From Opitutales bacterium (GTDB lineage Bacteria; Verrucomicrobiota; Verrucomicrobiia; Opitutales; Seribacteraceae), in contig JAOHKZ010000008.1 in the NCBI GenBank assembly GCA_028101545.1, positions 1 to 64,000 on the forward strand: a DNA stretch of 64,000 nt, in the 5' to 3' direction. The notes under the pieces are model-generated. The model saw only the letters and a list, made by a program, of their open reading frames with translations. It searched no databases and was not told the DNA's origin. This document shows, piece after piece, positions 58,391 through 61,038 of the stretch (position 1 is the first letter of the stretch; each line of letters starts with the position of its first letter). Position numbers and translations under genes: made by a program.

Positions 58391-58400
58391 CTTTTTCTTA

Positions 58401-58417
58401 TTGCAAGTTCATTGCAA
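58401..58417. promoter_or_regulatory. Fur-family (Nur/Zur-like) operator candidate
   Basis: TTGCAA-GTTCA-TTGCAA is a perfect dyad of two self-complementary hexamers with a 5-base spacer. As I recall it, the Streptomyces Nur box is tTGCaa-N5-ttGCAA, the same layout. It sits 22 bases upstream of the start of a Cys/His-rich secreted protein and upstream of a His-rich TonB receptor. Confidence 0.65.
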
Positions 58418-58438
58418 AAAAATAAGTTATGGAATTTC

Positions 58439-58780
58439 ATGCGTTTTCTAAGCACAGTTTGTCTGCTAATCATAAGTTGTTTGACCATATCCGTGGTCTC
58501 TCCAGAAGTTCATTCATCTCTTTTCCACGGAGATCAGCAATGCTCTCATGGAAAGACAGGATTGCCTTGTTCTTCTGAAGGTAGTGAATCTTCAGAAAAT
58601 ACAAATGGTCTATGCGCAGTCGTGCTGTATGGGGAATCTTCTGAGCCTACATTCTTTCAACTTTCTTATTCAAGTTCTTTACTTTTGGATTTGGGAATTT
58701 CAAGAATGGAAGTGTTTAAGGAATTCCGAGCTGATTCAACAGGAATTAAATGGGCCCGAGGTCCTCCCGAGCAGGTTTAA
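58439..58780 (+). CDS. Small secreted Cys/His-containing protein next to a TonB receptor
   Basis: A 113-residue protein starting at ATG 58439; the in-frame TTG at 58412 lies inside the operator dyad, so I reject it. It has a signal peptide (about 1-24, FLSTVCLLIISCLTISVV) and a mid-section with FHGDQQCSHGKTGLPCSSEG and GLCAVVLYG, giving a cluster of His and three Cys that could bind a metal ion. I do not recognise the family. Similar short Cys/His-rich secreted proteins are often found just before metal TonB receptors. The operator upstream and the receptor 116 bases downstream support a metal-uptake role. The gene's reality rests on the leader, the operator and the position. Confidence 0.6.
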   Translation: MRFLSTVCLLIISCLTISVVSPEVHSSLFHGDQQCSHGKTGLPCSSEGSESSENTNGLCAVVLYGESSEPTFFQLSYSSSLLLDLGISRMEVFKEFRADSTGIKWARGPPEQV

Positions 58781-58801
58781 CCTACTTTACAAAAATTTCT
58801 G

Positions 58802-58821
58802 ACTCTCTCAGGAGAGTTTTA
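58802..58821 (+). terminator. Short hairpin plus TTTT between the small protein gene and the TonB gene
   Basis: ACTCTC-TCAG-GAGAGT, a six-pair stem with a 4-base loop, is followed by TTTTAT. It resembles a weak intrinsic terminator or attenuator that would lower TonB receptor expression relative to the upstream small protein. Confidence 0.45.
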
Positions 58822-58896
58822 TGTTTCCCTGCTATTTAGTTCATTACGGAATTATTAAGATGTCTAAAAATAATTCCTCACCATTAAAAAACGATT

Positions 58897-61038
58897 ATGA
58901 AAATTTTATCTGTCCCTATTTTATTAGCCTCTTCCTTTGCCTTTGCACAGGAAAACTCAAATAAAGATGCCGTCAGGGTGTTAGATGCCCTTACTGTAGA
59001 ATCCTCGCCTCTTGGAACTAAGACAACGGATGTCACTCAGGCTTGGAGTGTTCTCTCCGGTGATGAGCTGCAAAGATCTAAAGGTCTTACTATTGCAGAG
59101 ACGTTGTCTAATGTTCCTGGCGTAAGTCAGACTCAATTCGGCCCCACCGCAAACCGGCCGATTATACGCGGAATGGACAAATTTCGGGTAAGGGTCTTGC
59201 AGAATGGAACTGATTCCTTCGATGTTTCCGCACAATCCGAAGACCATGCGGTTCCCATCGACCCTTTAATGGTCGATCGGATTGAAATCCTTCGTGGATC
59301 ATCCGCGCTGTTACATGGAGGAAGTGCCATCGGGGGTGTTGTTAATGTAATCGATCGAAGTATTCCTACCAGTCCATATGATTCTCCGGGTGCATCACTT
59401 CGTTCCAGTTATAACAGCGTCAACGACGGTTGGAATTACGGAGCGATGGCATTTGGAGGTTCTGATAAACTCAGTTTTCAAATCAATGGGTTTAAGCGTG
59501 ATTACAATGATTACGACGCTCCTACCTTCTACACCGAGGACCATCATGATGGATCTGTTGAAGGTCCATTTAATAAAGTTAAAAATAGTCACGGCGTTAG
59601 CTCTTCGGTTGGGTTGGGAGGTTCTTACTTATTGGACTCAGGCTTTGCAGGATTTAGCTTTTCTAAATATCAAAATGATTACGGCGTTCCAGGAGAACAT
59701 GCTGAAAGTGATACTCTGATTGAAATGGAAAGCGATCGTTTCGAGTTTCGCACTGAAATTGAGATTAATGATTCTGATTGGTTAACCGGCGTAGAATTAA
59801 ACATTGGTTATGGAGACTACAAGCATAGCGAAAGCGGTTTTGAAGAGGAAAACGGTACAAGAGATTGGCATACTCACTCGACTTATCTACGCGAAGGCTT
59901 TGAAGGCAGAATTGCCTTTAATCATGAAATCGGGGATTTACGCGGAGTTTTTGGCCTTCATGGGATCTTTGATGAATTTAAAATCCAAGGAGAAGAAAGT
60001 ATCCTTGGTGGTCTTTCAAAACCAACTGCCAACAACCCGCCAATAAGTTCCGAGGATTCGAGCAAGATCGCACTTTTCTTGATTGAAGAATACGACTTGA
60101 ATGAAGATACGACTCTGAACGCGGGGATTCGTTGGGAAAATATTGAACGCGATTATGAAAGTACTATTTCTGATCGGGAGGACACCACTTTCAGTGCAAG
60201 CGGAGGCGTTTCCCACGATCTCAGCGAGATTTGGAATATAAGTGGAAACCTAAGCTACTCTGAACGGACTCCGGACACCGCCGAATTGTACTCGGACGGG
60301 GCACACCATGCTACGGAAAGTTTTGAAATTGGAAATCCTAATCTAGACACTGAATCTGCGGTGGGAGTAGAAGTAATTATTCGCAAAACTGTGGGTAAAG
60401 TAACAGGTCAATTTTCCGCTTTCCATACAAAATACAATGATTATGTTTTTCTTGAAGATGCTGAACAAGTTCGCGACGGAGAAGGCAATTTAGGAGATCA
60501 ACCGGGCCCTAACGGAACTTTAGGTGATGAAGATGATACATTCGCTTCAGGTGCAGAGGGGCTTCCCGTAAAAAATTACGAGGCGGTAAAAGCGGAGTTT
60601 CAAGGCATAGAGGTCGAAGTTGATTGGCTGGCTATGGAAAGTCCTAGTTGGAATCTCATGTTATCCGCTTATGGCGACATGGTCCGAGGAAAGAACAAAA
60701 CGGAAAGTACTAATTTAGCGAGGATTCCAGCAGCGAGACTTGGGATTGGATTTGAAGTCCAACAAGAAAAATTAGATTTTGGAATGAAGCTTACTCGGTC
60801 ATTGAAACAGGACAGAGTTGCTGCACATGGAGATCATAGTGAGGAACCAACTGCAGCATACACTGTGGTTAATGCATTCGCATCTTATGATGTTGATTTT
60901 GGAGACTCCGTTGGAGAGTTTTTTATTAAAGGGAATAATTTGACCGATGAACATGCTTACAACCACTCTTCTGTTCTTAAGCAGTATGCACCTCTTCCAG
61001 GTCGTAGCGTAGAGCTTGGTCTAAAGTTTGATTTCTAA
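58897..61038 (+). CDS. TonB-dependent outer-membrane receptor, probable metal (Zn/Ni) uptake, ZnuD-like
   Basis: A 713-residue receptor. A signal peptide (about 1-17) is followed by a TonB-box-like DALTVESSP, a plug domain (about 35-155; GLTIAETLSNVPGVSQTQFGPTANRPIIRG, VDRIEILRGSSALLHGGSAIGGVVNVID) and a 22-strand-type barrel ending GRSVELGLKFDF. Extracellular-loop candidates are rich in His and acids: TEDHHDGSVEG, YGVPGEHAESD, DWHTHSTY, DGAHHATESF and AAHGDHSEE. The plug, the YGVPG segment and the PLPGRS end recall ZnuD-type zinc receptors. Together with the Fur-family-like operator upstream, uptake of Zn, Ni or a related ion is the best hypothesis. There is no SusD partner. It is convergent with DUF6807 (4-base gap). 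Confidence 0.88.
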   Translation: MKILSVPILLASSFAFAQENSNKDAVRVLDALTVESSPLGTKTTDVTQAWSVLSGDELQRSKGLTIAETLSNVPGVSQTQFGPTANRPIIRGMDKFRVRVLQNGTDSFDVSAQSEDHAVPIDPLMVDRIEILRGSSALLHGGSAIGGVVNVIDRSIPTSPYDSPGASLRSSYNSVNDGWNYGAMAFGGSDKLSFQINGFKRDYNDYDAPTFYTEDHHDGSVEGPFNKVKNSHGVSSSVGLGGSYLLDSGFAGFSFSKYQNDYGVPGEHAESDTLIEMESDRFEFRTEIEINDSDWLTGVELNIGYGDYKHSESGFEEENGTRDWHTHSTYLREGFEGRIAFNHEIGDLRGVFGLHGIFDEFKIQGEESILGGLSKPTANNPPISSEDSSKIALFLIEEYDLNEDTTLNAGIRWENIERDYESTISDREDTTFSASGGVSHDLSEIWNISGNLSYSERTPDTAELYSDGAHHATESFEIGNPNLDTESAVGVEVIIRKTVGKVTGQFSAFHTKYNDYVFLEDAEQVRDGEGNLGDQPGPNGTLGDEDDTFASGAEGLPVKNYEAVKAEFQGIEVEVDWLAMESPSWNLMLSAYGDMVRGKNKTESTNLARIPAARLGIGFEVQQEKLDFGMKLTRSLKQDRVAAHGDHSEEPTAAYTVVNAFASYDVDFGDSVGEFFIKGNNLTDEHAYNHSSVLKQYAPLPGRSVELGLKFDF

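Follow-up and report, generated by a model that had tools for sequence, protein, structure and literature searches.

The window analysed here is a 64,000-nucleotide stretch from an Opitutales bacterium (contig JAOHKZ010000008.1 of assembly GCA_028101545.1), in which a palindromic element, a small exported ORF and a gene for a TonB-dependent receptor follow one another. A sequence-only reading of the same DNA had assigned it to a PVC bacterium, which agrees with the host group, Opitutales. The features of the locus, in window coordinates, are:

58398..58420, no strand assigned: predicted operator, TTA-TTGCAA-N5-TTGCAA-(AAA), with the core dyad at 58401-58417
58439..58780, + strand: exported CruR/CutF-like (DUF2946-like) candidate leader ORF, 113 aa, with invariant H25, C59, R107, P109 and P110
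58757..58768, + strand: RGPP codons three residues ahead of the stop, the proposed arrest site; RxPP is present in every leader found
58781..58896, + strand: intergenic region between leader ORF and receptor, 116 nt, with a terminator-like hairpin at 58801-58818
58897..61038, + strand: ZnuD-like TonB-dependent receptor, 713 aa, with the zinc-ligand equivalents D116, H117, E312 and H470

The core dyad, TTGCAAGTTCATTGCAA, is the sole exact match to TTGCAA-N5-TTGCAA in the window, where no second copy with zero or one mismatch occurs, and it lies 21 nt ahead of the ATG of the leader ORF and 479 nt ahead of the receptor gene. No promoter resembling the sigma-70 type turned up at the operator in a consensus scan. 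The host assembly (G000, 2.2 Mb, 57% complete) contains one exact dyad and eight single-mismatch places, and a single exact match per 2 Mb is weak evidence alone; it is conservation that carries the argument. Among 25 regions of upstream DNA of receptor orthologs from relatives (the named receptor-bearing ones being Opitutales/Opitutia MAGs and single cells), 19 contain an exact TTGCAA-N5-TTGCRW and 20 do so when one mismatch is allowed, against a mean of 0.04 and a maximum of 1 in dinucleotide shuffles of the same regions. A site is missing where the receptor is the second of a tandem pair, where the contig is truncated, and from one interrupted gene that enters the count twice. Throughout 22 aligned sites, TTGCAA and TTGC are constant (one site is off by one base), the five-base spacer is variable and the palindrome is lengthened by flanking TTA and TAA. 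A chance origin of the dyad is rejected by the 19/25 against the shuffle mean and by the constant half-sites around a variable spacer; judged by its conservation, the dyad is a real control site maintained by evolution. The perfect dyad reported in the sequence-only reading is thereby confirmed, both in its letters and across relatives, and the half-site TTGCAA named there is the true core, though slightly narrow, the conserved operator being TTATTGCAA-N5-TTGC(A/G)(A/T)TAA.

The distance from site to receptor is about 500-555 bp where the small ORF stands between them and about 140 bp in G016 and G018, where the receptor is directly next. In these two genomes the operator precedes the first of two tandem receptors and the leader ORF lies between the two, so the leader travels with the receptor and not with the operator. 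BLAST matches to the divergent esterase gene occur at 10 of the 24 receptor loci, twice as short pieces only, and on this count the gene was rejected as a constant member of the regulon.

Of the 42 genomes of the host family, 26 carry the extended operator TTATTGCAA-N5-TTGCRWTAA and none the reversed control; across Opitutales the operator occurs in 100 of 373 genomes (reversed control, 8). A zinc-class gene lies within 1.5 kb at 23 of 30 operator loci and at 1 of 53 control loci, the query proteins having been drawn partly from operator loci; when the count is restricted to ZnuD, COG0523, MerC, ZIP, Zur and ZnuA, it is 13 of 30 operator loci. Within the host genus, a divergent operator stands between an FAD oxidoreductase gene and a cluster encoding an exported protein, an ABC ATPase, a MacB/FtsX permease and a DUF3299 protein, and some genomes carry a second operator ahead of DsrE, HisI and a COG0523 GTPase. 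The gene content of the ABC/DUF3299 cluster is that of Vibrio zrgACBE (Zrg-type), a cluster that Zur represses and that zinc limitation switches on (PMC9817125). Sites elsewhere in Opitutales adjoin COG0523, a ZIP transporter, HisI, ZnuD-type receptors, a ZnuABC-like cluster and choice_anch_M surface proteins, and a site lies 2-60 bp ahead of the gene in about 13 of 30 MerC loci, another family supplying two of the genomes. The merC genes of most same-genus relatives are without the operator. Many of the regions upstream of host-genus merC (L136-L150) share a different element, about TATTCTCTATTTACAGAATA.

ABC-3 transporters were rejected as operator targets, given a site in 0 of 30 loci, and 209 kb around the ABC-3 and zur loci of relatives contain no sites. 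The host ABC-3 operon adjoins a gene that, judged by eye, is DtxR/MntR-like, so this transporter is probably one for Mn or Fe. In the host assembly, itself 57% complete, no further strong site adjoins a zinc gene. The one promising single-mismatch operator of the host (L241:4004-4020, at G000:C23:38003) lies downstream of a conserved gene; the matching position holds merC in G019 and a truncated merC in G013, merC was not found in the 57% complete host assembly, and the site looks like a relic left by gene loss.

A conserved palindromic site is thus present before several independent zinc-starvation genes and, going by this genomic company, the operator belongs to a zinc-starvation gene set across Opitutales. 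The earlier proposal of a metal-responsive uptake locus gains support from the sites at zinc genes and from the ZnuD-like receptor; in the genome scan the motif is not scattered at random, unlinked to transport genes, but tracks zinc genes. The same reading held that such regulons are little described in PVC bacteria, and a literature search gave nothing relevant, with no description of a zinc-starvation regulon in Opitutales; the operator amounts to a concrete, order-wide prediction of one. Two other arrangements of the motif were observed. Operator pairs spaced by about 31-34 bp, or three helical turns, are frequent in G361, G353, G263, G251 and G061 (L300, L301, L309, L311 and L122), which suggests the binding of two dimers. 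A genome of the same order, G066 (1.1 Mb), has 132 exact matches to TTGCAA-N5-TTGCAA (for example L070:1501-1517), often in the form TTGCAACANTGTTGCAA, with none in the reversed control; as far as seen, these are a highly iterated palindrome with no tie to the zinc locus.

The receptor contains 19 His, with the clusters HH, HTH, HH and HGDH, in keeping with the several His-rich loops noted earlier. Its best match among all families of NCBIfam is NF038289, at 334 bits, yet this is below the curated cut-off of 950, and its closest solved relative is Neisseria meningitidis ZnuD (4rdr, E 6e-38; next match 5e-12). The homology with ZnuD is full-length, and the principal zinc ligands of that protein, D99, H100, E340 and H499 (PMC4557270, the first printed there as D90), align with D116, H117, E312 and H470 when read using a constant offset of 14. 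H117 and H470 are found in 32 of 32 alignment rows and D116 and E312 in more than 95%; the principal zinc site of ZnuD, with all four ligands, is therefore kept in the receptor, whereas the score is far under the NCBIfam ZnuD cut-off and the other His loops are unlike those of the meningococcal protein.

That the operator is of a Fur-family type, as had been supposed, is supported by its position relative to Fur-family genes in several families. A site is found immediately upstream of such genes in G080, G263 and G236 and in clusters containing one in G072, G087, G202, G031 and G028, the G072 cluster also including MerC, ZnuD, the leader ORF and a choice_anch_M protein. The zur candidate gene of the host family has no site, and autoregulation is seen in other families only. 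The host encodes two Fur-family proteins, on contigs C29 and C7. The nearest solved relative of the C29 protein is M. tuberculosis FurB/Zur (2o03), with S. coelicolor Zur (3mwm) well above Nur; it shares the HxxE(V/I)FGxCxxC ending and does not have the His found after helix 2 in Nur, PerR and the second host Fur protein, and it reaches no curated Zur cut-off. By its resemblance to solved Zur structures it is a Zur-type Fur protein in the same genome as the operator, and we infer that it may be the protein that binds there. The C7 protein resembles Fur/PerR and has no His cluster. The half-sites of GCAA-N5-TTGC are spaced as in the proteobacterial Zur motif, GTTA-N5-TAAC (PMC4176598), and the known Zur regulons of E. 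coli, Vibrio, Pseudomonas, Caulobacter and actinobacteria have ZnuD, COG0523, the Zrg-type ABC and DUF3299 genes and zur as targets in common with the Opitutales set. They differ in their half-site, which is GTTA(T) instead of TTGCAA, and in their hosts, whereas MerC, choice_anch_M surface proteins and the leader ORF are prominent in Opitutales.

The small ORF encodes an exported protein of 113 aa with 5 Cys and 3 His, as the description of a Cys/His-rich secreted protein implied, but most of these positions are not conserved. In 22 leader sequences H25, C59, R107, P109 and P110 are invariant and S21, H30 and L63 nearly so; in nearly all family members three residues separate the R-x-P-P from the stop, a conserved Cys is found 46-48 residues ahead of it, and the gap to the receptor measures 116-167 nt. 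Relatives of the leader precede ZnuD-like receptors in several Opitutales families. An NCBIfam search left the small protein unmatched, and PF11162 (DUF2946) matches 4 of the 22 leaders weakly, below the cut-off (best E 0.0013), the window member being unmatched. This anatomy recalls CruR of Bordetella pertussis, a DUF2946 leader ORF that likewise precedes a TonB receptor; its RAPP stands three residues from the C terminus, the CXXC is found 45 residues upstream of RAPP, and the gap to the receptor is 162 nt (PMC9426467). According to the published model, RAPP arrests the ribosome and copper on CXXC relieves the arrest, after which Rho terminates transcription (PMC9426467). CutF of Rhodobacter capsulatus follows related principles, and its authors already suspected non-copper members (PMC9973294). 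The window leader shares with CruR its position, that of a small exported ORF ahead of a TonB receptor, and with CruR and CutF the C-terminal R-x-P-P close to the stop, the spacing from Cys to motif and a long intergenic region. It differs from them in having no CXXC or CxxxC (the second Cys of CXXC is missing from the leaders, so that there is no CXXC about 45 residues from the RAPP-like motif), with H-x4-H and one Cys as metal-type residues in its place, in lying under a zinc operator and in matching the Pfam family weakly only. Of 22 intergenic regions, 4 have a terminator-like hairpin, where shuffles average 1.26, and an intrinsic terminator was rejected as a conserved attenuator on these numbers.

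As for the operator, its core spelling and spacing are those of the Streptomyces Nur consensus, tTGCaa-N5-ttGCAA (PMC3919588), and the sequence-only reading had called it a Nur-type box at a locus for Ni or Zn. It is nevertheless very improbable that the dyad is a true Nur box, placing a nickel receptor under a nickel-responsive repressor of the Fur family. No site is present in 19 kb of the host urease/urea ABC transport cluster or in 21 of 23 urtA loci of relatives, and the remaining two have weak single-mismatch sites, about 350 bp before a urea-transporter gene in G012 and about 245 bp before urtA in G001, which differ and cannot be aligned with each other, although they are, besides the spelling, what favours nickel. 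(The UrtA proteins of G012, G001 and G051, at L243-L245, are 90-93% identical across families of the order but share about 45% with other copies from the same genus, which horizontal transfer or contamination likely explains.) The sites are attached to zinc genes and not to nickel genes, the receptor keeps the ZnuD ligands and the host Fur candidate resembles Zur; on these comparisons the likeness to the Nur box is one of spelling only, and of the two metals zinc is favoured over nickel, so that the dyad TTGCAA-N5-TTGCAA should be read with caution, as it does not identify nickel control. Binding by another regulator, be it the second Fur-family protein on C7 or a zinc-answering regulator from outside the Fur family, is unlikely. 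The host does carry two Fur-family genes, and half-sites 11 bp apart, each self-complementary, have a shape that suits several families, but in several families Fur-family genes have a site directly ahead of them or a few kb away at most, the GCAA-N5-TTGC spacing equals that of proteobacterial Zur, and the C7 protein is Fur/PerR-like and has no His cluster.

Regarding the small protein, the operator might answer to zinc and Zur while the protein serves as a periplasmic zinc-capturing factor or chaperone that passes zinc to or from the receptor. Such a function, close to the metal capture suggested earlier, would suit an exported protein with Cys and His that precedes a ZnuD-like receptor throughout, but it is doubtful: the poorly conserved His/Cys positions, set against invariant H25 and C59 and an R-x-P-P whose distance from the stop is fixed, match what CruR-type leaders need and scavengers do not, and neither CruR nor CutF has been detected as a mature protein (PMC9426467, PMC9973294). 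The conserved features of the small protein make a role in scavenging metal unlikely; it appears more like a metal-sensing leader peptide. By analogy with CruR and CutF, the balance tips slightly toward a cis-acting arrest peptide; its metal, in that case, would likely be zinc because of the company it keeps.

Taken together, a Zur-type operator, a ZnuD-like receptor and a zinc-gating leader of the CruR/CutF type form a model that we consider probable as a whole, and it builds on an operator that is conserved and associated with zinc and zur genes, on the zinc ligands of the receptor and on the anatomy of the leader. With ample zinc, Zn-Zur would occupy TTATTGCAA-N5-TTGCRWTAA and block transcription, and repression by Zn-Zur at this predicted operator is very likely. 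Upon zinc starvation, Zur would leave the operator, the leader ORF and the ZnuD-like receptor would be transcribed, and the receptor, together with TonB, would bring zinc through the outer membrane. The small ORF may then act as a second, cis-acting zinc gate, in which the nascent exported peptide would stall at its C-terminal RxPP and zinc on the His/Cys of the leader would alter the pause, setting the expression of the downstream receptor. If CruR is a guide, low metal would lead to stalling and expression, and high metal to release and termination. The chances are about even that such a zinc-sensing nascent-chain switch is a second gate under Zur, at an operator spelled like a Nur box. If this is true, transcriptional and nascent-chain control are stacked on a single receptor and, should the leader sense zinc, co-translational metal sensing, shown for copper, is extended to zinc.

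A small exported ORF of the CXXC type, which offers a contrast to the window leader within one genome, is also present on another contig of the host assembly (L237:2749-3138, G000:C34), where it contains PCSVC and ends in ELPPPRIRA, with genes for a Met/His-rich protein and a TonB receptor coming next; it is probably the copper counterpart of the window leader, with a different C terminus.
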